This document shows positions 9,770 through 35,292 of a stretch of DNA of 60,106 bases, one piece after another. Source of the stretch: a virus; IMG/VR virus record IMGVR_UViG_3300027736_000049, positions 1-60,106 of that record. One strand, 5' to 3'. Each line of letters begins with the position of its first letter. Position 1 is the first letter of the stretch. The position numbers and the translations under genes were made by a program. The notes under the pieces were generated by a model, which did not search any database, was not told where the DNA came from, and saw nothing but the letters and a program-made list of their open reading frames with translations.

Positions 9770-12700
9770 ATGAGTAATCCCCTTCTCGCTTTTCGCCGGG
9801 ACGACGACTTTAGCTTTGGCGGCGCGGCTAGGGGATTGCCTCCGGGCGTCCATTTAGAGTTCTATGGTGGTGGCGGCAAGGGGGGCTCTAGCACTCAGAC
9901 CGTCTCCATTCCTCCCGAGGTTTTGGCGCGATACAATGCCGTCAACGCCCGTGCAGAGAATGTGGCGCAGACGCCGTTTACGCCATATTCGACCGATCCT
10001 AACGCCTTTGTGGCCGGCCTTACCTCATCTCAACAGGCTGGAATTGGCAATATTAATGCCCAACAGGGGGCCGCAAATCAGGCCGTTGGCATAGGCCAAG
10101 GTCTTCAGCAGCAAGGGATTGACACTGCCCGAACTGGCCAAGGTCAGGCCAACGCTATCAATCAAACTGCTTTGCAAGGCATTAGTCAGGCACAGCAGCA
10201 GGGAACCGCTTATAATCAGGCCGCGGGCAAGAACATTGGCAACGCTATGTCTTCGGCTGCGCCCTACATGCAGCAAATGGCTGGCCTTACGCAGGCTGGT
10301 CTTGGGCAGGGCCAGCAATACCTTGGCGGGGCTACCGATCTGACACAACAGGCCATTCAGACCGGCCAACAGTACGCCAACAAGGCGGAACCCTATTACA
10401 CCGGCGCTTTGCAGGCTGGACAGCCCCTGAACCAACAGGCGCAGCGATACATGCAGGCCGGGACGCAGGCGGTAAACCCGAATGCGCTGGATTACGGTCA
10501 GTACATGAACCCGTACATGAGCGACGTGGTTCAGGCCCAGCAAGCCCTTCAGGCGCAGGAAAACGCTCAACAGCGTTCCGCCTTGCAGGGTAAGGCTATT
10601 CAGTCAGGTGCGTTTGGCGGCGACCGTGCCGGTATTGAGCAGGCCAATTTGGCTCGCCAACAGAGCCTTGCCAATCAGGCGACAATGGCCAATCTGCTTC
10701 AGTCTGGCTATGGGCAGGCTCAGGCCGCTGCACAGCAGCAGCAGGGCGTGGGTCTTGGCGCTGCTCAAGCTAATCGTGCGGCCCAGCAGGCTGCGGCCCA
10801 ACAAGCTGCGGCGCTTGGTCAACAACAATACGCCCAGCAGCTTGGCGTGGGAACTGGCCTTTCGGCTCTTGGTCAGCAGCAGTATGGACAGGCCCTTGGC
10901 ACTGGCTCGCAGCTCGGCACATTGGGCCAGCAGGGCTACACACAGAACCTTGGCGCTGGTGCGCAACTGGGTCAGGTCGGCCAGAACCTGTATGCACAAA
11001 ATATCGGTCAGGGTCAGGCCATTCAGGGTCTTGGCAATCAACAGTTTACGCAGGGGCTTCAGGGCTCTCAGGCGGCGTCTGGCATTGGCCAGAGCATCTT
11101 TGGCAATGCCGCCCAGACCGCTGGCATTCAGCAGGCTGGCGGCATGAACACCGCCAACCTTGGCCTCCAGAACCAAGCCGCACAGATTGCCGCCGCGCAG
11201 GCTCAGATGGCCGCTGGTCAGCAGCAGCAACAGACTGAACAGGCTGGCAAGACGGCGCTCTACAACCAATTCTTGCAACAGCAGGGCTACCCCTTCCAGA
11301 TCGCGCAGTTCCTTGCCAATATCGCGATGGGCACTGGCGCTCTGTCAGGCTCCACAACAAGCGCCGCCCGTACAGGGCAGCGCGGTGGTCGCATGGGCGA
11401 TGGTTATGCTTCTGGCGGGCTTGTGCCTGATAGTCAGGGCGGCGCGGTTTATGAGCCGGGCCTGTACGAGCGCGGCGGCTATGCCAGTGGCGGCAAGATG
11501 GGTCCTGATTTTGCGCTTGGCAGTGATAATGATGGTAATGAGGTTTGGACTAATCTCGCTACAGGCCGAGCCGTTGACGCAATCAATGACCCTGAATTTT
11601 TGGCGTGGCGCGCAAATGGCAATGTGCCCGTGGGGAATAAAAAGACGGCACCAACAACAAGTTCTGCTGGGTTGGCTGGAACATCTAATTATGACCAAAT
11701 TGTCCGTAACGCCTATGGGCAAATTGGCCGTAAGGATTTTGGCACTGCCGCCAGTAACATTGATGAGGGCGGCTACAACTATTGGATGAACCAACTGAAC
11801 TCAGGAACCATCACGCCTGATCAGTTTAATGCACAATTTACGAAAGAGGGGCAGGCGTATAATGCCGCCAATCCGAAATCTGATGTAGCAAAACTGACGC
11901 AGCCAGTCATGCAATCCAATGCAGATTTTCGTAGTGTCGGCGGGCTTGATCCAGACATTGCGGACGCATTTAAAGAGGCTGTTGGCAGAGATATTGATGG
12001 GGCTTCCGCCCGCAAATATCAGGCTATGAAGGATGCTGGTTTGAGCTTGGATCAAATCACATACAACATCGCAAATTCCCAGCCAGCGAAATTGAAAGCG
12101 GGCGATGTTGACGCCCTCAAGGGCCCATCGCTTGCTTACGATGCCTCCAAGTTCTCCCAGCCAGTTGCCCCTGTTCGCAATCAGTATGGCGCGTTTTCTG
12201 CGGGTGATTTTACAGGTTTAACGCCTCAACAATCGCAGGTCATTAACGCCTATTCGGCGGTTGGTCGGACCCCCGGCAGTCGATATGCTCCTTCGCAAAA
12301 TGAGTTGAACTATTGGACAGGCCAAATGTCTTCTGGCGCAATTGCGCCGGGAGAATTTGGTAATACGTTTAATCAAGCTGTTCAAAGCAATATGGCGCAA
12401 AATCCCAATGCGCCTCTTACGCAGTACATTAATAATTACATGAACCAGCCCATTGGTGGCTATGGTCAGCCGCAGGGTGGTGGTTATAGCGGTGGCCTTG
12501 GTGGTTATGGCCAGCCGCAGGGCTATGGCAATATGTCTGCCATACAGGGTGGATATGGTGGTTATGGCGGCGGGTTTGGGGGTTATGGCGGCGGCATGAT
12601 GGGCGGTTACGGCCAGCCCAGCAACTACGGTATGCCTAACTTTGGCTCATCGCCGCAGTATGGCGGCGCTCCTGACTATGCCGGTGCTATGCAGTATGGT

Positions 12701-15700
12701 GGGATGAGTGCGCAGTATGGGATGCCGCAGGGCTATGGGATGCAGCAGCAGGGCTACGGGATGCCGCAGCAGCAACAGTATCAGCAGCAACAGTATCAGC
12801 AACAGCCGCAATACCAGCAATATCAGCCGCCTATGCAGTCCACGCCTGCCATCCCGCAGGGCGTTTTGGATCGTTATAACGCGACAAATGGTCAACAGGC
12901 CGCTCCCACCGCCACCGGCAAGGGCGCTGCACCTGCTATGGGCACTGACGGTTTGGCTGGCTCCACAACAACCGCGCAGACTACTGCCGCCCCAACGGCA
13001 ACTGGCAAGGGCGCAAGTTCGCCGTCAACTGCCACCGGCAAGGGAGCGTCTGGCATGGCGGGCGGTGGCCGTGCGGGCTTTGCTGACGGTGGTCGGGCGG
13101 GGTATGCCGCTGGCGGCGGAGACCCATCCAGCATACTTCGTGGCCTTATCAGCCAGTACGATCCCGGCGATCCGCAGGGTTTGGTGGCTAGGCAAGCGGC
13201 TATGTTTGCTGGCGCTCCGGGCGCTGGCGCTGCTGGCTATGTGCCGCCCACGCAAAGCATGGCAGGCCAGCGTCAGATGCTTCAGCCGCAGGCAAGCATT
13301 CTTCCGCAACAGCAGAGCGGCATTTCGCAAGCGGCTGCGACCGGCACTAGCATCGCCAGTTTGGGTGAGGCTGGTGGTAAGCTCTATAGCAAAATGACCA
13401 GCAAGCCCGGTACGGACACGGCTGCTGACACTTTTAAAGAAGGTTTTGGCAACTTTGCTGATAAAACCAAAAACTTCTTTGGGTTTGGCGAAGCGGCAGG
13501 TGGTCGCATAGGCTACGCCTTGCAGGGCGGTATCCCTTATTCGCAAGGCGCTGACCCGAACAAAGACCCTTCGCGCGTGGGCTACATGGGGATGCTGGAC
13601 TTGCAGCAGCCCATCGACCCGACGCAAGCGTTCAACGCCCAGAAGGCCGGGCAGATGCCCAGCGTTCATCAGGCGTCTAACCCGCTCGTGCAGGGCGCTC
13701 AGGCTGTGAATGCGCTCAACAGTGGGGCCAAGACCCTCAAAAGTGCTGGCGAGTTCCTTGGAATTGGCAAGACAGCCCCAGATATGGGCTCCTTGGCGAA
13801 TGCGCCACTGCCAATGGCTCGCCCTGAAGGTCTTGGCGCTGCCGCCCCTGAGATGGGCTCTCTATCAAACGCGCCGCTTCCGATGGCGCGTCCCGAAGGT
13901 CTTGGGGCACTTGTGTCTGAAAGCGCCCCCGCAGCCGCTGCGCCTGCCCTTGAGGCCGGTGCTGTTCAGGCTGCCGCCTCGCCCGTCCTTGGCGAAATGA
14001 TTGGCGCTGGCGCTGCCCCTGCGGTGGCTGAAGCTGCTTCACTTACAGCTCTCGGTGAGGGTGCTGCCGCCATGGGCGCGGAGATGTTTGCGGGCTTGGC
14101 GGCTGGCGCTGGCAGTGCGTTGGAATTTCTCCCGTTCCTTTTCCTGAAGACAGGCGGTCGCGTCGGCAAGGCTGGCGGCGGTTCCCTTGTGGACCCCAGC
14201 AATCCCCAAGATCAGGCGATGGCGAAATCTTTCGACAATCTGCTCCAGCGTTACGACAACAACCCGCTCCTCGCCGCTGCGGCGATGGACGTTGGCACCA
14301 AGGTCGTTGACGCCGCCATCCAGAAGGCCGAGCAGACTGGAGGCGACATCACTGACTTCCTGCCCCGCAGGACGCAGGAGTACATGTTTGCCCTGTCCAA
14401 GGCCGCTATGGGCGCGCATGACGCCATGAGCCGCCCTGCCCGTGCGGCGGGTGGGCGGACGGGGTATGCGTTGCCGGGCTTCGTGAATGACGAGCCTACT
14501 GGCCTTGCACCTGCGCCGTCTGACGCTATGACCATGGGCGATGTGGCTGGTGGGCTCTCGCCTGAGCCTACTGTGCAAGTTGCTGAACTGAAGAACCCGG
14601 ACATTCTTCGCGCATTGCGTGGGTCTGAAGGGGCCAATGGCAACCCGGAAGCCAAGAACCCCAACTCAACGGCTGGTGGTTTGTACCAATACCTTGACAG
14701 CACTTGGCAAAAACAAGCTCCCCTTGCCGGTGTGGACATTAAACAATACCCCACGGCTAGGTCTGCCCCTGCGGACATCCAGCACCAAGTGGCCGACGCC
14801 AATGTCAGCAGCATCTTGGAGCAGAACAAGGGTAATGTGCAGGCCGTCCCTCATCTTTGGTATTCGGGCAACCCCGAAGGCAAACTGAGCCCCGAAGGCC
14901 TTGCGGCTAACAAAGGGTTCACGCAAGAGCAATATAATCAACGGTTCTTCAAAAAACTTGAGCCCGGTGCGCCTGAAGGCAAGCCTGTTCAAGTTGCTGG
15001 CCTCAACCCTTCCAAGACTGACGCTGGCTCGCTCAGTGACATTGGAAAGACCATTTCCGACTCCGTTCCTACCAGCAGCAGCTTCTGGGTTCCGCTGATT
15101 GCGGGCCTTGGCACCATGTTGGCCTCTGACAAGTATCGCTTCTCGCAGCGCATTGGTGAGGGCCTTGTGGGCGGTGCGGCTGCGTTTGGTAAGCAGCAAG
15201 AGTTCGGGTTGAGTAAGGAAAAACTGGCGCAGGAAGAGGCGTTGCGTAAACAAGGATTTGGGCTCCAACAGCAACAGATTGGTTTGACTGAGCGTGAAGT
15301 TGCGCTCAAGGAGGCTGAGAGCAAACGTAGGATTGAAGCAGCCAAAGCTGCCGCTGCGGCATTAAGTGGAAATGTTGCGCCGGTGCAACCTTCTGCCCCT
15401 GTTCCGACAGCCAAAACTACGGTTGCCCCTCCCTCTGTTGGCGGTGCACAGCCAAGCAATCCCAATAATGCAGCGCCAGCAATTCCTCCGGCTGGCGGTC
15501 TTGTGCCTCCTCCGGTTGAAGATAAGGATAAAACCCCAGCGGCTCCTATCCCGGCTCCTAACAGCAAATTCTGGGAAAATGTGGACCCTCAGTCCAATCC
15601 GCATAACCTATTAGCTTTGGCGGATAGGTTCGATCAAGCTGCCGTTGCGTCTGCTGAAGATCCATCATCAATGGCTGCCTATCGCGCTTCTGCTCAACAG

Positions 15701-16894
15701 TACCGGGCGCAAGCAAGTGCTATTCGCCTGAGCGGCATAGTCACGATGAAGGATCAGTCAACAGCCTCAATGCCCGGCTTCAATGAAGCCAAGGCAGCGC
15801 AGGCTGCTGCGCTTAAGCAAGCGGAATTGAACGTTACAACTTCGCCAGAAGCCCGCGCTGCCGAAGTTGAAAAACAACGTCTTCTTGAAGAAGAGAAACA
15901 GCGTTATGCCCCCTTCGAAGACAATGAGGGTAATCAATGGCGTCGGGCAGCGCCAAGCGACACGCCAGTTCAAATGGCTGCGGCCCCCAACACCACTGCC
16001 GCTGCTGGTGAGCCGGTGAAGGCGTCTCTTGATCCAAAGACAGCGCGAGTTAATAATGTCATCCCGGCACCTCCTGTTGGTGGTGGTATCCCACAAGCTA
16101 TTCCCCCGCGCGAAGGTCTCGTTCTTGCGAAGTCGGCTGGTCTTTCGCCTGCCGCCAAAGCAAATGACCAAAAGTTTTCAGAAGAATTCCCCGGAAAATT
16201 GCATAATGCAATTGAAGGCGAAGAAGCCATGCAAACTGTGGCGCAGGCTTTCAAACTCTTTACTTCCAATGTTGTTGCCGAAAAACTTCAGGGATACGCG
16301 CTTTTGGCAAGGGCCATCGGAATGCCTGACAGTGTTGTGGAGGCTGTTGCAGGGGGCGACCCTGCGGCCATGCAGCGCGTTGATAAGGAAGCTGTACCTT
16401 CCGTTATTGGCATTCTGAAAGAAGGTGCAAGCCGGTTTGGGCAGCAAGAATTTATGGTTACGCAGAAAACTGCCGTTGCATCCAAAACGGCTGACCCCAA
16501 GGCAAATCATGCCCTTGTCGGCGAGTTGATGGGCAAGGCTCAGTGGAACAAACAATTCCTCACTGATTGGGATAAGGCCAAGGACGAGGGATGGCGTAGC
16601 CCGTCTGCGTTCTTTGCCTCATGGTCTCAGGCCAATCCGCTCAATACCTACATCCTCTCTGCTACCAAGCAGATTGGAAACTTCAGTGGGATGGATCTTC
16701 CCAAAGATCCAAATGCCTATGTGGAAGGGGCTATTTACGTTGCACCCGAAAGATTTGGTACTCCTGCACTAGAAAAATATTTTGGGTCTATCGGGGTGAA
16801 GCCGGGTCAATTGTTCAAGTACAATGGGCCCAATAATCTTCAACCTATAGCCAAAGAAGATTATTACACGGCGCATTTGACCGGGAGGCGATAA
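9770..16894 (+). CDS. Giant internal virion (ejection) protein with transglycosylase-like domain
   Basis: A 2374-aa protein, by far the largest here. In order: a Gln/Ala/Gly-rich helical repeat region (about 60-510); three DUF4214-like segments (about 640-700, 727-775, 817-875; YWMNQLNSGTITPDQF); a Gly/Tyr/Gln-rich stretch (897-1024); TATGKGA repeats; a 23-residue tandem repeat (about 1339-1384, ANAPLPMARPEGLGA); a lysozyme/transglycosylase-like domain at about 1610-1710 with RGSEG (E1620) and AGGLYQYLDSTW; a charged coiled coil near 1810; and a C-terminal region. GGRxGYA motifs separate domains. It likely rides in the head, is injected, and opens peptidoglycan, comparable to T7 gp16. Confidence 0.85.
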   Translation: MSNPLLAFRRDDDFSFGGAARGLPPGVHLEFYGGGGKGGSSTQTVSIPPEVLARYNAVNARAENVAQTPFTPYSTDPNAFVAGLTSSQQAGIGNINAQQGAANQAVGIGQGLQQQGIDTARTGQGQANAINQTALQGISQAQQQGTAYNQAAGKNIGNAMSSAAPYMQQMAGLTQAGLGQGQQYLGGATDLTQQAIQTGQQYANKAEPYYTGALQAGQPLNQQAQRYMQAGTQAVNPNALDYGQYMNPYMSDVVQAQQALQAQENAQQRSALQGKAIQSGAFGGDRAGIEQANLARQQSLANQATMANLLQSGYGQAQAAAQQQQGVGLGAAQANRAAQQAAAQQAAALGQQQYAQQLGVGTGLSALGQQQYGQALGTGSQLGTLGQQGYTQNLGAGAQLGQVGQNLYAQNIGQGQAIQGLGNQQFTQGLQGSQAASGIGQSIFGNAAQTAGIQQAGGMNTANLGLQNQAAQIAAAQAQMAAGQQQQQTEQAGKTALYNQFLQQQGYPFQIAQFLANIAMGTGALSGSTTSAARTGQRGGRMGDGYASGGLVPDSQGGAVYEPGLYERGGYASGGKMGPDFALGSDNDGNEVWTNLATGRAVDAINDPEFLAWRANGNVPVGNKKTAPTTSSAGLAGTSNYDQIVRNAYGQIGRKDFGTAASNIDEGGYNYWMNQLNSGTITPDQFNAQFTKEGQAYNAANPKSDVAKLTQPVMQSNADFRSVGGLDPDIADAFKEAVGRDIDGASARKYQAMKDAGLSLDQITYNIANSQPAKLKAGDVDALKGPSLAYDASKFSQPVAPVRNQYGAFSAGDFTGLTPQQSQVINAYSAVGRTPGSRYAPSQNELNYWTGQMSSGAIAPGEFGNTFNQAVQSNMAQNPNAPLTQYINNYMNQPIGGYGQPQGGGYSGGLGGYGQPQGYGNMSAIQGGYGGYGGGFGGYGGGMMGGYGQPSNYGMPNFGSSPQYGGAPDYAGAMQYGGMSAQYGMPQGYGMQQQGYGMPQQQQYQQQQYQQQPQYQQYQPPMQSTPAIPQGVLDRYNATNGQQAAPTATGKGAAPAMGTDGLAGSTTTAQTTAAPTATGKGASSPSTATGKGASGMAGGGRAGFADGGRAGYAAGGGDPSSILRGLISQYDPGDPQGLVARQAAMFAGAPGAGAAGYVPPTQSMAGQRQMLQPQASILPQQQSGISQAAATGTSIASLGEAGGKLYSKMTSKPGTDTAADTFKEGFGNFADKTKNFFGFGEAAGGRIGYALQGGIPYSQGADPNKDPSRVGYMGMLDLQQPIDPTQAFNAQKAGQMPSVHQASNPLVQGAQAVNALNSGAKTLKSAGEFLGIGKTAPDMGSLANAPLPMARPEGLGAAAPEMGSLSNAPLPMARPEGLGALVSESAPAAAAPALEAGAVQAAASPVLGEMIGAGAAPAVAEAASLTALGEGAAAMGAEMFAGLAAGAGSALEFLPFLFLKTGGRVGKAGGGSLVDPSNPQDQAMAKSFDNLLQRYDNNPLLAAAAMDVGTKVVDAAIQKAEQTGGDITDFLPRRTQEYMFALSKAAMGAHDAMSRPARAAGGRTGYALPGFVNDEPTGLAPAPSDAMTMGDVAGGLSPEPTVQVAELKNPDILRALRGSEGANGNPEAKNPNSTAGGLYQYLDSTWQKQAPLAGVDIKQYPTARSAPADIQHQVADANVSSILEQNKGNVQAVPHLWYSGNPEGKLSPEGLAANKGFTQEQYNQRFFKKLEPGAPEGKPVQVAGLNPSKTDAGSLSDIGKTISDSVPTSSSFWVPLIAGLGTMLASDKYRFSQRIGEGLVGGAAAFGKQQEFGLSKEKLAQEEALRKQGFGLQQQQIGLTEREVALKEAESKRRIEAAKAAAAALSGNVAPVQPSAPVPTAKTTVAPPSVGGAQPSNPNNAAPAIPPAGGLVPPPVEDKDKTPAAPIPAPNSKFWENVDPQSNPHNLLALADRFDQAAVASAEDPSSMAAYRASAQQYRAQASAIRLSGIVTMKDQSTASMPGFNEAKAAQAAALKQAELNVTTSPEARAAEVEKQRLLEEEKQRYAPFEDNEGNQWRRAAPSDTPVQMAAAPNTTAAAGEPVKASLDPKTARVNNVIPAPPVGGGIPQAIPPREGLVLAKSAGLSPAAKANDQKFSEEFPGKLHNAIEGEEAMQTVAQAFKLFTSNVVAEKLQGYALLARAIGMPDSVVEAVAGGDPAAMQRVDKEAVPSVIGILKEGASRFGQQEFMVTQKTAVASKTADPKANHALVGELMGKAQWNKQFLTDWDKAKDEGWRSPSAFFASWSQANPLNTYILSATKQIGNFSGMDLPKDPNAYVEGAIYVAPERFGTPALEKYFGSIGVKPGQLFKYNGPNNLQPIAKEDYYTAHLTGRR

Positions 16895-30835: not shown

Positions 30836-31539
30836 GCGGCACCCGCAATCTTAGCGATGATCTCGCCAAGGTCAGGCGCTTCCCACGCGCCCAGCTTGCC
30901 AGAGCGGTCCTTGGCCAGCCAAAGCCCATCGCTGTCACACATGATGGCGCGCTGGGTATTGCCGTCTGCGTCCTTCTCCACCCGAAGCGCCAACACCTCG
31001 TCAAAGAAGTACGGCAGGCTTTGGCCAGTCTTGTTGCCGGGCATAGACGGGGCATACAAAATGCGCCCCATCTCGTCGGTAGACTTTTCCAGCTTAGCGC
31101 TCATGTAGACATGCCGTCCGGGCAAATCGCGAAAAGCACGAATGATGTCAGCCATTTGCTCTTGCATAGCGCCGTAGGCCTGCCGAGGGTCTTTCGCAAT
31201 CTTCTTTTCGTGGTTCAGCACAACCTCAGCAATCTCGCTGATGCTGTCCAGCGCCACGCTCTTGAACCTCATGCCTTCTGCCGAGGACATCCATTCAAAA
31301 GCTTCCTTCAAATCATCCATGCTGGTGATTTCAATGAAGGGAAGTTTTGCGTCCTGAATGGAAAGCAACCCGCCTTCCGCGCTCAGGACAATAGGGTCTG
31401 GCAAGCCGGGGATGAGAGATGTTTTCCCAGCGCCCGCCTGCCCATAGACAAGCATCTTGACGCCATTGGCGGACAAGCTGCCCGTATTCTTTACTGATAT
31501 GGCCAACGCGGCCTCCTTCGTTTTGATCGGTCGGACCAT
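30832..31539 (-). CDS. Sak4-like single-strand annealing recombinase (AAA_24 ATPase)
   Basis: A 235-aa RecA-core ATPase. Walker A is VYGQAGAGKTS (about 31-41), Walker B KSVALDSISEI (about 94-104), and HVYMSAKLEK is a Q-loop-type strand. These match phage Sak4 proteins (RecA-fold annealases dependent on a DUF669 SSB). First gene of the leftward early operon, starting 15 bases inside the control region. It would drive phage recombination and replication restart. Confidence 0.87.
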   Translation of the reverse strand: MVRPIKTKEAALAISVKNTGSLSANGVKMLVYGQAGAGKTSLIPGLPDPIVLSAEGGLLSIQDAKLPFIEITSMDDLKEAFEWMSSAEGMRFKSVALDSISEIAEVVLNHEKKIAKDPRQAYGAMQEQMADIIRAFRDLPGRHVYMSAKLEKSTDEMGRILYAPSMPGNKTGQSLPYFFDEVLALRVEKDADGNTQRAIMCDSDGLWLAKDRSGKLGAWEAPDLGEIIAKIAGAA

Positions 31540-31623
31540 TCCGTTCGATCAACACTTGCAATATGGGTGATTTGCTGGCAGTTTGCAACAGCCAAATGTT
31601 AAAAACCCACATGGGATTGCAAA
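31540..31623. promoter_or_regulatory. Divergent early control region with three TTGCAA sites
   Basis: An 84-base gap between the leftward recombination operon and the rightward Cro-like gene. The self-complementary hexamer TTGCAA occurs at 31556, 31583 and 31617, spaced 27 and 34 bases. ATATGGGT (31561) is echoed by ACCCACAT (31605). A leftward promoter could use TTGCAA at 31583-31588 and CATATT at 31560-31565 (17-base spacing). The adjacent HTH protein is the obvious candidate to bind here. Confidence 0.55.
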
Positions 31624-31806
31624 ATGCTAACAATCGAACAGATAAGGCTTGCCCTGCGAGACCGGAGGATTAGCATGGTCTCCGCCGCGACTGGCTTGCA
31701 TTACAACACCATCAGAGCCTTGCGGGATAATGAAAGCGCCAATCCAAGCTATAAAGTTTTGAAGGCTTTGAGTGACTATTTTGAGGGGGCAAAGCAACAT
31801 GGCTGA
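31624..31806 (+). CDS. Cro/CI-like small repressor
   Basis: A 60-aa protein that is essentially one helix-turn-helix: MLTIEQIRLALRDRRISMVS then ATGLHYNTIRALRDNESANP and a closing helix. It resembles phage Cro-type DNA-binding proteins. No strong ribosome site precedes ATG 31624. Its end overlaps the primase-helicase start by 8 bases. Expected to bind the TTGCAA region just upstream and balance the two early directions. Confidence 0.8.
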   Translation: MLTIEQIRLALRDRRISMVSAATGLHYNTIRALRDNESANPSYKVLKALSDYFEGAKQHG

Positions 31807-33814
31807 TTTGACGGACATTTTAGGTGGCCCGTGGTCCCCGCCAACCGCTGTTAATCTTGGAACCCCAGAGGAACAGTTATCCACAGCTATGTCTGGGTGC
31901 GGCATTTTGCCACCCAAAGAGATCCTGCTAGATGGGAAAGTTCACCGCTTTAACTCAGGCACCAAAGGCTCAGGTGGGCACGGCGACAAGGCTGGCTGGT
32001 ATGTGGCTTTCTCGGACGGCATTCCAGCCGGACGCTTTGGTTGCTGGCGCGCAGGCATCGAATCCACATGGCGAGCCGACATAGGCCGCAAGTTCACCCA
32101 TACCGAAGAAATGGCCCACGTCCGCCGTATGGGCGAGGCCAAAGCCCTCAGAGACGCCGAGAACGCCAGAAAACAGGAAGTCGCCGCCAACACCGTCGAA
32201 GCCATCTGGGTCGACTGCGGTTTTGCTAACGAAGACCATCCTTATCTAAAAACCAAGGGCATCAAGACCCATGGCGCCCGCGTCACAGGTGACGGGCGCC
32301 TAGTCGTCCCCCTGTTCGATCAGGCCGGGAATCTCTCCAGCCTCCAATACATCGCCGTAGATGGCGGCAAGCTCTACCACTCCGGCGCACAGACGGGCTC
32401 TCGCTTCTGGCAAATCGGCACCCTAGACGAGCCCGGCACCCTCTACGTCGCCGAGGGCTTCGCAACCGCCGCGACCATCCACGAAGCCACAAACCGCCCC
32501 TGCATTGTAGCCTACTCCGCCTCCAACCTCGTCCCCGTCACCGGCATCCTGCGCGAGATCCACGGGGCCACGCAGGACATCGTGATCGTGGCCGACAATG
32601 ACGCCTCCGGCGTTGGCCAGCGATACGCTGAGCAGGCGTCGGCCAAGTTCGGGGCTCGCATGGTTATGCCGCCAGAGCCGGGCGATGCCAATGACTACGT
32701 TCAAGCTGGGCACGATCTGGCGGCGCTCTTGTTCCCGCCAAAAGACAATTGGCTAATTCCCGCCGATGACTTCTGCGCCCAGCCCGCGCCTATCTCATGG
32801 CTTGTCAAGCATTGGCTGCAAGACAAAGCCCTGATCATGGTCCACGGCCCTTCCGGCGGCGGCAAAACCTTCGTAGTGCTGGATTGGTGCCTACGCATGG
32901 CGGCGGGCGTTTCAGAATGGGCAGGCCACCGCGTTAGAACGGGAACGGTTGTCTACCTTGCGGGCGAGGGGCATCACGGCCTGCGGGGGCGCGTAGCCGC
33001 TTGGAAAGTCCACCAGAACGCCGGGCCGCTATCCATGTGGCTCTCCCGCGACGGATGCGATCTCAATACACCGGCTGGCTACATGCGGGTGGTGGATAAC
33101 ATCCGCGCCCTCCCAAATCGGCCCAGCATTATCGTGGTGGATACCTTGCACCGCTTCCTGCTCGGTGACGAAAACTCCGCCCAAGACGCGAAGACCATGC
33201 TCGACGCCTGCGGGGCGCTGATGGCGGAGTTTGAGTGTTCGGTCTTGCTTGTCCACCATACTGGCGTCAGCGAAGAGGCCCAGCATAGGGCGCGTGGCTC
33301 ATCGGCATGGCGGGGGGCTCTGGACATCGAGATCAGTATCGTCCCCGGCAAGGACGACCAACCCATGTCGATCATCCAGCGCAAGTCCAAGGACAGCGAG
33401 CTGGCAGACCCGGTTTATGCCGAGCTTACGTCTGTGACGATACCCGGTTGGTTTGACGAGGACGAGCAGCCAGTCACGAGCGCGGTCGTGAGCCTCGTGG
33501 AGGCCCCCGTGGTGGCTAAGAAGGAGAGTAAAGTTGAGGGGCTGCGTAAGCAATTTGTAGCCGCTTGGTATGACTCAAAGGCTGAGGAACGCGAGGGGTT
33601 GCCTTATGTGAGCCGGTCAGCTTTGAAGCACTTTCTGGTGGCCAATTTGAATTGTAGCGAGGCGACAGCGGACAAGAAGCTGAAGCCGGGGTCAGCGGAC
33701 CAGCTTATTGGTGCGCTCTTAATTGCAGAAATTATCAGCCCATTTGAGAATGGGTGGATCGTTAGTAATGAAGTTTGCGCATCTGCCATGTTGATGGACA
33801 AGAATAAAAGGTAA
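31799..33814 (+). CDS. Primase-helicase (Toprim plus RepA-type hexameric helicase)
   Basis: A 671-aa protein; GAGGGGG precedes ATG 31799. The N-terminal part (to about residue 200) precedes a Toprim domain with LYVAEGFATAATI (about 213-226) and IVIVADNDASG (about 260-271). A RecA-like helicase follows: Walker A GPSGGGKT at 350-357, VVYLAGEGHHG, Walker B SIIVVDTLHRF, then LLVHHTG and ARGSSAWRGA. The C-terminal 100 residues may be a winged-helix adaptor. With no phage DNA polymerase visible, it likely loads the host replicase. Confidence 0.92.
   Translation: MADLTDILGGPWSPPTAVNLGTPEEQLSTAMSGCGILPPKEILLDGKVHRFNSGTKGSGGHGDKAGWYVAFSDGIPAGRFGCWRAGIESTWRADIGRKFTHTEEMAHVRRMGEAKALRDAENARKQEVAANTVEAIWVDCGFANEDHPYLKTKGIKTHGARVTGDGRLVVPLFDQAGNLSSLQYIAVDGGKLYHSGAQTGSRFWQIGTLDEPGTLYVAEGFATAATIHEATNRPCIVAYSASNLVPVTGILREIHGATQDIVIVADNDASGVGQRYAEQASAKFGARMVMPPEPGDANDYVQAGHDLAALLFPPKDNWLIPADDFCAQPAPISWLVKHWLQDKALIMVHGPSGGGKTFVVLDWCLRMAAGVSEWAGHRVRTGTVVYLAGEGHHGLRGRVAAWKVHQNAGPLSMWLSRDGCDLNTPAGYMRVVDNIRALPNRPSIIVVDTLHRFLLGDENSAQDAKTMLDACGALMAEFECSVLLVHHTGVSEEAQHRARGSSAWRGALDIEISIVPGKDDQPMSIIQRKSKDSELADPVYAELTSVTIPGWFDEDEQPVTSAVVSLVEAPVVAKKESKVEGLRKQFVAAWYDSKAEEREGLPYVSRSALKHFLVANLNCSEATADKKLKPGSADQLIGALLIAEIISPFENGWIVSNEVCASAMLMDKNKR
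31877..31885 (+). promoter_or_regulatory. Perfect DnaA-box sequence
   Basis: TTATCCACA, the consensus DnaA box, lies inside the 5' end of the primase-helicase gene. Further exact copies on the opposite strand are at 3483-3491, 20542-20550 and 37316-37324, with a one-mismatch copy at 20512-20520. Because the phage encodes a DnaA domain-IV protein, these may be functional, though all lie in coding sequence. Confidence 0.4.
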
Positions 33815-33827
33815 TTGCCATGCTCAA

Positions 33828-34015
33828 CCGTACCGTACCGTACTTTTGGCGTACTAGTACGTTTTGGTACGTTTTTGGCTTATTGCTTAGCTCAACCGTA
33901 CCGGCGTACCGTACCGTACTTTTGCGTACTGGTACGTTTAGGGGCAAAACGCCCGAAAACGTACCGTACCGTACTCCCCCCCTTTAGGGGGGGTACGGCG
34001 GTACGGTCGGTGCGG
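33828..34015. repeat. GTAC-rich array, candidate replication origin
   Basis: Seventeen GTAC tetramers lie between 33830 and 34004, where fewer than one is expected by chance. Many are in CCGTA repeats of period 5 (33829-33843, 33909-33919, 33960-33974). Two longer direct copies begin CTCAACCGTACC at 33823 and 33891. The last part contains C7-TTTA-G7 (33975-33992), flanked by GTACCGTAC and TACGGCGGTACGG, so it can fold into one long hairpin; GGGC-AAAAC-GCCC at 33942-33954 is a smaller one. The array directly follows the primase-helicase. An 80-codon frame through it is repeat-driven and not listed as a gene. Confidence 0.75.
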
Positions 34016-34030
34016 CGGATAGTCCGGACG

Positions 34031-34055
34031 AAAAAACCAGCCCGGAGGCTGGTTT
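34031..34055 (-). terminator. Rho-independent terminator of the leftward methyltransferase operon
   Basis: On the minus strand AAACCAGCC, loop TCCG, GGCTGGTTT make a perfect 9-pair stem that runs into TTTTTT. It sits 9 bases after the stop of the HTH gene at 34064 and just before the GTAC array. It would keep this transcript from crossing the array. Confidence 0.85.
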
Positions 34056-34063
34056 GAAGTTGG

Positions 34064-34264
34064 TCACTTGTTCAACTGCTGGGCCAGCCAGTCAATGTCG
34101 ATCTTGCCCGCCTCTAGGGCCGCCAGCAGGATCAGGACGGCCCGTGGTGGCTCCCAGCCACCCGCCCGCCATGTCTCCACCGTGCGGACCCCGCACCCCG
34201 TCAGGAGGGCTAGGTCCGCCACAGTGAGGCCGAGCCGGATCATCTGGGCCTTGATGGGGGTCAT
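34064..34264 (-). CDS. Small helix-turn-helix protein
   Basis: A 66-aa protein starting MTPIKAQMIRLGLTVADLAL, ribosome site GGAGA. LGLTVADLALLTG and VRTVETWRAGG form a compact HTH resembling XRE or YdaS types. Its start overlaps the methyltransferase stop (ATGA). Likely a regulator, possibly of the palindromic promoters that drive this operon. Confidence 0.78.
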   Translation of the reverse strand: MTPIKAQMIRLGLTVADLALLTGCGVRTVETWRAGGWEPPRAVLILLAALEAGKIDIDWLAQQLNK

Positions 34265-35292
34265 GGCTGGGTCTCCATAAATGCTTTGATCACTTCTGCC
34301 GCGACTTGCGGGACGATGGCGTTGCCGTAGGCGCGCAGGCGTCCCACGCGGTTGGATACCCCATGAGCCAGCAGACAAATGCTGGGTTCAACGCGCCGGG
34401 CCTTGCCGTCGGCTCCGGTGAGCCAGATGTGGTCGTCCCAGAATGAACCAGCGCACCCAGATCCGTTATCGCTCCGTCCGGTTTTCGCCCCTTCCTTTTC
34501 AGGAAGCTCTCCCCGTCTCCCCCGCATGGCTGAGACGTTGGCGTTGGCCATGTGGACAGGTTGTGCATTACCGTGCTGGGAAGGTCGTCCAGACGGCCCT
34601 TGCGAGCCATCTCCTTCACGCATCCCTCCGGCGTTCGAGATCCTTTGTCCCCGTCCACTGAGCGTGGTGTCGGCCATGTGGTCCGCGCCAGCTCCGGCAG
34701 TGTCCACCCGGCCCTGTGAGCCGCCTCCGGCGTTCTGTTGCCCGTCCTGCCGTTCCCGTTCTTCTCGTCCGATGACCGAGGCGTTGGCCACGTCGAGTGC
34801 GACCCAGTAGAGGCGCTGGCGAATGTGCGGGGCGTTGACCGCGAGAGCCGGAATATCTGCCGCCCGGCTGGAGTAGCCAGTTCCTTCCAGATTAGATTGA
34901 ACTCCATCGAACCATCCGTACCCAGCCTTTCCCGCAACTTGCTCCCCCATGACGACAGGGGGCCTGACGGCGGCGATGAGGCGATGGAAGTGGGGCCACA
35001 GGTGCCTCGGATCGTCTGTACCGGCTCCTTTGCCCGCGACGGAGAACGGCTGGCACGGACAGCTCCCCGTCCAGATTGGCCGGTCGTCTGGCCATCCGGC
35101 GAGTCGGAGGGCGTGTCCCCATCCGCCGATCCCGGCGAAAAAGTGGCACTGGGTGAAGCCTCTGAGGTCATCAGGTGCCACATCGACAATTGACCGGGTA
35201 TCGACTTCGCCATCGGGTATCAATCCTGCTTTGATCAAGTTGCGTAGCCATTGGGCTGCGTAGGGTTCGATCTCGTTGTAGTAGGAGGTCAT
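34261..35292 (-). CDS. DNA (cytosine-5) methyltransferase
   Basis: A 343-aa protein. Motif I FFAGIGGWGHALRLAGW (51-67) binds AdoMet. Motif IV GSCPCQPFS has catalytic C80. Motif VI is GEQV where ENV is usual; APHIRQRLYWV is motif VIII; motif X is RLRAYGNAIVPQVA near the end. The segment between VIII and IX is a low-complexity repeat with VANA, MADT and MANAN. It probably methylates phage DNA against restriction; no restriction partner is seen. A second long frame overlaps most of it. Confidence 0.92.
   Translation of the reverse strand: MTSYYNEIEPYAAQWLRNLIKAGLIPDGEVDTRSIVDVAPDDLRGFTQCHFFAGIGGWGHALRLAGWPDDRPIWTGSCPCQPFSVAGKGAGTDDPRHLWPHFHRLIAAVRPPVVMGEQVAGKAGYGWFDGVQSNLEGTGYSSRAADIPALAVNAPHIRQRLYWVALDVANASVIGREERERQDGQQNAGGGSQGRVDTAGAGADHMADTTLSGRGQRISNAGGMREGDGSQGPSGRPSQHGNAQPVHMANANVSAMRGRRGELPEKEGAKTGRSDNGSGCAGSFWDDHIWLTGADGKARRVEPSICLLAHGVSNRVGRLRAYGNAIVPQVAAEVIKAFMETQP
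34290..35213 (-). CDS. Overprinted frame within methyltransferase (WPTP-repeat protein)
   Basis: A 307-codon frame on the same strand as the methyltransferase, in a different phase, covering about 90% of it without a stop. It encodes KLRERLGTDGSMEFNLIWKE, three TWPTP repeats with RTPE/G, and an end NPAFVCWLMGYP...TATPSSRKSR. I recall this series of motifs from many annotated phage proteins, so the frame seems conserved in its own right. It could be a real overlapping gene or a shadow preserved by methyltransferase conservation. No strong ribosome site at the first ATG. Confidence 0.4.
   Translation of the reverse strand: MAKSIPGQLSMWHLMTSEASPSATFSPGSADGDTPSDSPDGQTTGQSGRGAVRASRSPSRAKEPVQTIRGTCGPTSIASSPPSGPLSSWGSKLRERLGTDGSMEFNLIWKELATPAGRQIFRLSRSTPRTFASASTGSHSTWPTPRSSDEKNGNGRTGNRTPEAAHRAGWTLPELARTTWPTPRSVDGDKGSRTPEGCVKEMARKGRLDDLPSTVMHNLSTWPTPTSQPCGGDGESFLKRKGRKPDGAITDLGALVHSGTTTSGSPEPTARPGALNPAFVCWLMGYPTAWDACAPTATPSSRKSRQK

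Follow-up and report, generated by a model that had tools for sequence, protein, structure and literature searches.

A short-word array directly downstream of a phage primase-helicase gene as a probable iteron-type replication origin with repeatedly rewritten specificity

The viral DNA analysed here, hereafter called the window (60,106 nucleotides, positions 1 to 60,106 of the IMG/VR virus record IMGVR_UViG_3300027736_000049), carries a dense array of short oriented words just behind a gene encoding a primase-helicase. This array is very probably an iteron-type replication origin, whose words would be read by the winged-helix C-terminal domain (CTD) of the primase-helicase and whose specificity would have been rewritten repeatedly, function and binding being deduced from sequence comparison. 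Directly seen are the array with its constant place and arrangement, the variation of its words, the exchange of domain and array as a cassette, the association between residues and words, the covarying hairpin and the enrichment in DnaA boxes. An initial annotation of the same DNA had suggested either an iteron-type origin or a binding array, a proposal now strongly supported by the kept position and scaffold, by the candidate reader in the CTD and by the DnaA boxes of relatives.

How the specificity of an initiator can shift along with that of its numerous binding sites, all of which have to change, is an old question for plasmids, satellites and viruses. The phage family described below records in nature how a replication protein and the DNA on which it lands change in step, and its near-identical natural pairs and clean cassette swaps make the question directly testable. 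Scaffold, word and domain together provide a route to finding origins in many uncultured phages, and the family is a source of small origin-reader pairs that are mutually orthogonal.

Organization of the array

GTAC occurs 17 times within 175 bp of the window (33830-34004), exactly the density that had first drawn attention, as compared with 3 copies in the densest other 190-bp stretch. Because the total in the window (102 observed) matches the dinucleotide expectation (103 in dinucleotide shuffles), only the cluster stands out. A chance repeat was ruled out by this cluster density and by upstream controls of the relatives, namely 200-nt stretches upstream of primases in which the commonest 5-mer mostly reaches 3-5 copies, with rare exceptions. 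The array and its surroundings comprise the following features:

33828..34007, plus strand: array of 17 CGTAC/GTACG words in both orientations
33828..33936, plus strand: left-hand part, made of two blocks that each have three forward words, TTTT and then inverted words (repeat families D1, D2 and D3; alignment with relatives)
33941..33959, plus strand: scaffold box GGGGCAAAACGCCCGAAAA, constant while words change (alignment A6)
33960..34007, plus strand: core module made of three forward words, the hairpin and two reverse words
33976-33993, within the core module: hairpin C7-TTTA-G7
34009..34017, plus strand: conserved 3' box GGTGCGGCG (alignment A6)
34034..34055, minus strand: GC-rich inverted repeat (I9) with a minus-strand T run, probable terminator of the leftward genes

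The array does follow the primase-helicase gene, as annotated, and starts 13 nt past its stop (33814). The period-5 CCGTA runs, the longer direct copies and the C7-TTTA-G7 hairpin described initially were all found again. Blocks of CGTACCGTACCGTAC are present three times (33829, 33905 and 33960) with inverted words between them, the last block leading into the hairpin. A 20-nt repeat, CGTACCGTACCGTACTTTTG, has copies at 33829 and 33905 and a third one, matching at 80%, at 33960, and a 22-nt repeat is shared by positions 33814 and 33882 (86% match). As single-stranded DNA, the array region folds with a z of -6.7.

Palindromy and pairing in many registers had been taken as the essence of the array, a view that is not supported. 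The true repeat unit is the oriented word CGTAC, and self-complementarity is incidental to the GTAC lineage; the words CGGAC, GGAAC and CCCCCT of relatives are not palindromic. Indeed, most words of the family are non-palindromic, and the structure that is kept consists of one hairpin and oriented words. The strong terminator assumed on the leftward side fits the inverted repeat at 34034-34055 and its T run, but this repeat is not among the calls of the terminator scan. Facing the array from the opposite side, a DNA methyltransferase gene is located at 34261-35292 on the minus strand. The window also includes one open frame of 2374 residues on the plus strand (9770-16894).

The primase-helicase and its C-terminal domain

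The genes and protein segments concerned are the following:

31624..31806, plus strand: Cro/C1-type HTH regulator, 60 aa, overlapping the primase start (Pfam HTH_26; PHROG transcriptional regulator)
31802..33814, plus strand: Toprim primase/RepA-like (AAA_25) helicase, 670 aa (Pfam, PDB match)
33521..33811, plus strand: C-terminal winged-helix domain (CTD), 97 aa, proposed word reader (AlphaFold2 model, structural matches, exchanged with the array)
33659..33694, plus strand: specificity segment, CTD residues 47-58, i.e. helix 47-53 and the loop after it (per-column residue-word association)
33674-33676, plus strand: codon of CTD residue 52
33692-33694, plus strand: codon of CTD residue 58, Ser in the window (Tyr in CGGAC phages)

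The Toprim primase, the helicase and the C-terminal part modelled as winged-helix-like are thus all carried by one chain. Residues 214-302 correspond to Pfam Toprim_3 and residues 320-490 to AAA_25, and the helicase part matches RepA of RSF1010 in the PDB (1g8y, E 1.2e-7). The AlphaFold2 model of the CTD, based on 38 aligned domains, has a pLDDT of 92.7 and the element order H E H H H E E H. Its best structural matches are winged-helix proteins, including SqrR, HlyU, SmtB, linker histones, forkhead and RuvB, with moderate Z values of about 6-7, and a Foldseek search against the PDB returned nothing below E 0.001. It is on these many moderate matches that the CTD is modelled as a winged helix. 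The 60-aa HTH protein is the probable regulator of the operon. Bacterial genomes scanned with the primase gave no relative, and those searched with the exact array string gave no hit.

Relatives keep the position and change the word

A scan with the primase retrieved 80 viral loci, nearly all of which have the array directly 3' of the primase stop, and three further scans brought the collection to 173 distinct loci, mostly on uncultured contigs. The initial annotation had named the absence of similar arrays at the same place in related genomes as evidence against its proposal; they are present in most. Word classes were set by copy counts and then curated, automatic classes with fewer than about 6 copies not being trusted. 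These curated classes replaced a comparison of k-mer spectra between close N-terminal pairs, which was affected by array-less groups and noise.

The word CGTAC is shared by the window, L010, L012 and L013, and CGGAC is found in L009, L014 and L015. Other relatives carry GGAAC, GTAAC, CCCCCT, GACCCT, GGTTCA, GGGACA, GGACAA or CGTATC, and among isolates GGGGACA is used by Salicola phage CGphi29, GGTACA by Idiomarinaceae phage 1N2-2 and GGTTCA by the Alteromonas phages PB15 and XX1924. The 17 copies of CGTAC in the window are paralleled by 17 copies of CGGAC in L009, L014 and L015, and most relatives have 7-20 copies of their word. The common scaffold in alignment A6 is made of GGGGCAAAACG..., three forward words, a stem, two reverse words and ..GCGGCG. 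An array of GGGACA words with a hairpin and a DnaA box is also present in MW202867, at about 37-41% identity, the CTD of which is 41% identical to that of the window. No array was detected within 150 bp 3' of the gene in MW202475 (43%).

One group of relatives, with a replaced and quite different primase C-terminus (..NGISNFPGA..GSRRNLIDGKNARYI..), has no array up to 1.3 kb downstream of the gene (L200, L205, L219, L225, L226, L249, L253, L261, L265, L269 and L270). It follows that the phage family can live without the array, and the origin of this group, if any, sits elsewhere.

Variations of the layout were also encountered. The array of L082 and L083 seemingly parts the helicase portion from a distinct frame farther downstream that encodes the CTD, as in a split gene. 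Another case is L069, in which an unrelated repeat (ATATGCGGCGG...) takes the expected place of the array, at 0-600 nt from the primase stop, and the array of 11 CGTAC copies is shifted to about +620.

Exchange of the word with the C-terminal domain

Between word classes, identity drops sharply in the primase C-terminus only. Thus, L050 (CCCCCT) and L053 (GTAAC) have an N-terminal distance of 0.0 and a CTD distance of 0.47, and their DNA displays a sharp breakpoint inside the CTD, beyond which both the domain and the array differ. This breakpoint indicates that CTD and array travel as a cassette. On a tree of the N-terminal part of 116 primases, at least 34 changes of word are counted. The partial Mantel value between CTD and word, given the N-terminal part, is 0.41, with 0 of 200 permutations as high, and that between N-terminal part and word, given the CTD, is -0.15.

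The HTH regulator, which had been listed as a possible binder, was ruled out as the reader of the word because identical HTH regulators are paired with different words (L122/L156, L050/L053, L020/L029, L016/L114 and L017/L148).

Residues 52 and 58 follow the word

CGTAC arrays pair with a CTD carrying ...KPG-Ser-(Ala/Thr/Pro)-DQ and CGGAC arrays with ...KPG-Tyr-Pro-DQ, and GGAAC arrays pair with ..A-K-Val-Y.. and GTAAC arrays with ..A-K-Gln-Y... in the same way. For the loci found by protein, the rule at residue 52 holds in 50/50 cases, the N-terminal tree giving 9 independent contrasts that are supported and all point the same way (p 0.004), and the rule at residue 58 in 14/14 cases, with 3 supported contrasts out of 5 in total, in the same direction; as cassettes recombine, not every one of these N-terminal-tree contrasts is a separate origin. 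Trees built from the short CTD itself have at least 14 and at least 7 word changes, with only 2 contrasts each on well-supported branches.

A check independent of the protein was made by scanning four exact array strings over the viral collection, the upstream domain being read afterwards. With GTAAC, a CTD is found at 54 of 56 arrays, much diverged domains included, residue 52 being Gln in 51 and Leu in 3. With GGAAC, 53 of 67 arrays have a CTD, with Val at residue 52 in 49, Thr in 2, Lys in 2 and Gln in 0. The CGTAC string leads to a CTD at 18 of 28 arrays (13 with Lys52/Ser58 and 5 of another lineage with Gln52), and the CGGAC string at 6 of 43 (3 with Tyr58-Pro59, 2 of another lineage and 1 unaligned), the other 37 being mostly GC-rich repeats with no relation to primases. 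When all distinct domains are pooled, GGAAC and GTAAC are split by residue 52 in 82/82 cases (leave-one-out), and residue 58 holds all the information distinguishing CGTAC from CGGAC (0.938 bits).

The word could be read by another protein, the CTD hitchhiking as the coding neighbour of the array, and CTD and array do recombine together. Linkage alone, however, predicts that residues nearer to the array are at least as informative, whereas the best column after residue 62 reaches 0.76 for GGAAC/GTAAC, as compared with 1.00 for residue 52, and 0.74 for CGTAC/CGGAC. As array-proximal residues predict the word worse, linkage is a poor explanation. In addition, near-identical domains with near-identical tails differ exactly at the rule residues, and the HTH regulator is excluded, which makes hitchhiking very unlikely. 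In the DNA of L016/L017, L156/L122 and L010/L014, the flanks are highly identical and the helix or loop codons are changed together with all words.

Reading by the CTD, the preferred explanation, may extend to an amino-acid-to-base code in which residue 52 in the helix (Val/Gln) sets base 2 of the word (GGAAC/GTAAC) and residue 58 in the loop (Ser/Tyr) sets base 3 (CGTAC/CGGAC). An origin of up to 17 copies would then be rewritten repeatedly in step with one or two residues, probably under selection for incompatibility with rivals by which it is exploited or attacked; the chances of such a code are about even.

Hairpin, DnaA boxes and GC skew

The stem of the hairpin varies among relatives (CCCCCCC, ACACACC, CCCCATC, CCCCTCACTCT, CCCCAACCC and CCGCTCC) but stays complementary, and its loop is usually TTTA. 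Each of the consensus pairs (7/7) has both of its bases altered in at least one sequence. Covariation amounts to 0.578, against 0.202 when shuffled and at most 0.219 when slid, and, since the set is made of sequences chosen for having the hairpin, it measures variation inside the hairpin and not hairpin frequency. RNAalifold recovers the inner 7 pairs only, and inspection by eye suggests an outer stem in which words on either side of the hairpin pair.

Strong folding and hairpin covariation, which alone cannot separate RNA from DNA, would also suit a structured RNA or a transcription terminator ending the primase mRNA. This explanation is scarcely credible, as no Rfam family matches the region 31400-34600 at gathering score, the hairpin is not followed by a T run, the many word copies in both orientations track a domain of DNA-binding type, and DnaA boxes are present. 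Indeed, the exact DnaA box TTATCCACA is found 107 times in the 18.7 kb after primase stops against 52 times in 531 kb elsewhere, i.e. a 58-fold enrichment. At many GGAAC and GTAAC loci, two boxes precede the array and one follows it with near-fixed spacing; the window's own array and the CGTAC/CGGAC lineage have zero exact boxes there.

The boxes also bear on the idea of an operator or silencer, through which the tail of the primase-helicase would regulate its own operon or downstream genes, with replication starting elsewhere. A binding array beside its own gene suits autoregulation, and the residue-word association indicates recognition, not replication. Nevertheless, the array follows the gene, 33600-34500 yielded no promoter-like site, DnaA boxes surround many arrays, the putative reader is fused to a helicase and a primase, and a covarying hairpin occupies the middle of the array. 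An operator is thus unlikely. As for a packaging (cos/pac) or partition site, terminase genes lie within about 2-3 kb after the array in the window and in CGphi29, but the terminase of PB15 is about 6 kb off with many genes between, primase adjacency is kept and the word tracks a primase domain, all of which renders such a site highly improbable.

The cumulative GC-skew check suggested initially did give minima near the array (32.9 vs 33.9 kb in the window, 5.0-6.1 vs 7.2 in CGphi29 and 22.3 vs 19.9 in PB15), but it is confounded by divergent transcription, which coincides with the minima, so that these are not independent evidence of an origin.

In L042 and L070-L086, which have a GACCCT array, a second cluster of DnaA boxes is located about 600-870 nt after the primase stop. 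It resembles a small oriC, an AT-rich stretch being surrounded by TTATCCACA and TTGTCCACA in the two orientations.

Proposed mechanism and comparison with known systems

As an origin, the array would be bound on its short oriented words by the winged-helix CTD, and the word-bound proteins would place the hexameric helicase at the hairpin next to them, the point at which the strands would first open and primers would first be made. In many relatives, host DnaA on the flanking boxes would assist. Origin specificity would be set by few residues, in one helix and the loop after it, and could change by two routes, either by swapping CTD and array as a cassette or stepwise, through a joint change of a single residue or a few residues and of one base in each copy of the word. 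The drive for rewriting could be the pressure of an initiator-mimicking nuclease, by analogy with PLE satellites, whose origins are cut by a phage nuclease mimicking their initiator (PMC8263062), or the rivalry of co-infecting phages.

In common with iteron origins, copies of a short word lie beside a replication-protein gene and the word is matched to the DNA-binding domain of the putative initiator, the latter as a statistical association. The statement that no described phage origin has this form was too strong, since the origins of SaPI/SCC, P4, pRN1, PLE and geminiviruses share parts of it. In SaPI Rep and SCCmec Cch2, short iterons, such as the 5-nt AAGTG of SCCmec, are also placed directly 3' of the initiator helicase gene and bound by the CTD of the helicase, whereas this helicase is of another kind (a 3'-5' translocase) and the primase is a separate protein; neither a hairpin scaffold that covaries nor a rewriting of the word throughout a family is described in the portion of that source used here (PMC7581432). 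The alpha protein of phage P4, compared by its description, likewise unites in a single polypeptide a Toprim-type primase, a helicase and origin recognition by a winged helix, with origin repeats (PMC4234260), but the helicase here is of another family (RepA-like AAA_25), and neither the words nor their layout are alike.

The oriV of RSF1010 depends on the same helicase superfamily (the 1g8y match) and has iterons and hairpins for priming, whereas three proteins are needed, RepA, RepB' and RepC, and the iterons are read by RepC (PMC4234260). By contrast, the phage protein alone carries the helicase, the primase and the probable reader, and the word tracks its own CTD. In pRN1, a small repressor gene and a primase-helicase gene are followed directly 3' by a stem-loop origin of roughly 100 bp, kept in structure and variable in sequence, and the protein has a winged helix at its C-terminus; unlike here, its primase is archaeo-eukaryotic, its helicase belongs to SF3, iterons are lacking and specific binding was undetected (PMC4234260). 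A structure-kept, sequence-variable hairpin directly 3' of the primase-helicase gene is also what the hairpin-bearing phage sequences display.

PLE satellites share the covariation of the initiator DNA-binding domain with the origin and its swapping as a module, but have two specificity groups only, longer iterons and an N-terminal reader (PMC8263062), whereas the phage family has over ten words and also displays residue-level switching. In geminiviruses, iterons of species-specific sequence are arranged around a stem-loop and correlate with residues of the iteron-related domain of Rep, but these are rolling-circle ssDNA viruses with an unrelated Rep (PMC10653810) and the phages studied here are dsDNA tailed ones. 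With respect to the open-access literature, what is new is that these features are combined in tailed phages, that the words are so numerous and that switching proceeds by one residue and one base per copy.

Arrays with hairpins also occur beside other RepA-like helicases in which no copy of the CTD is recognisable (L475, L276, L278 and L293), possibly forming a wider origin class. The array of L475 follows a 358-residue AAA_25-like protein without a recognisable copy of the CTD, and that of L278 follows, in opposite orientation, a Toprim/AAA_25-like protein without a recognisable CTD, the family being judged by sequence in both cases.
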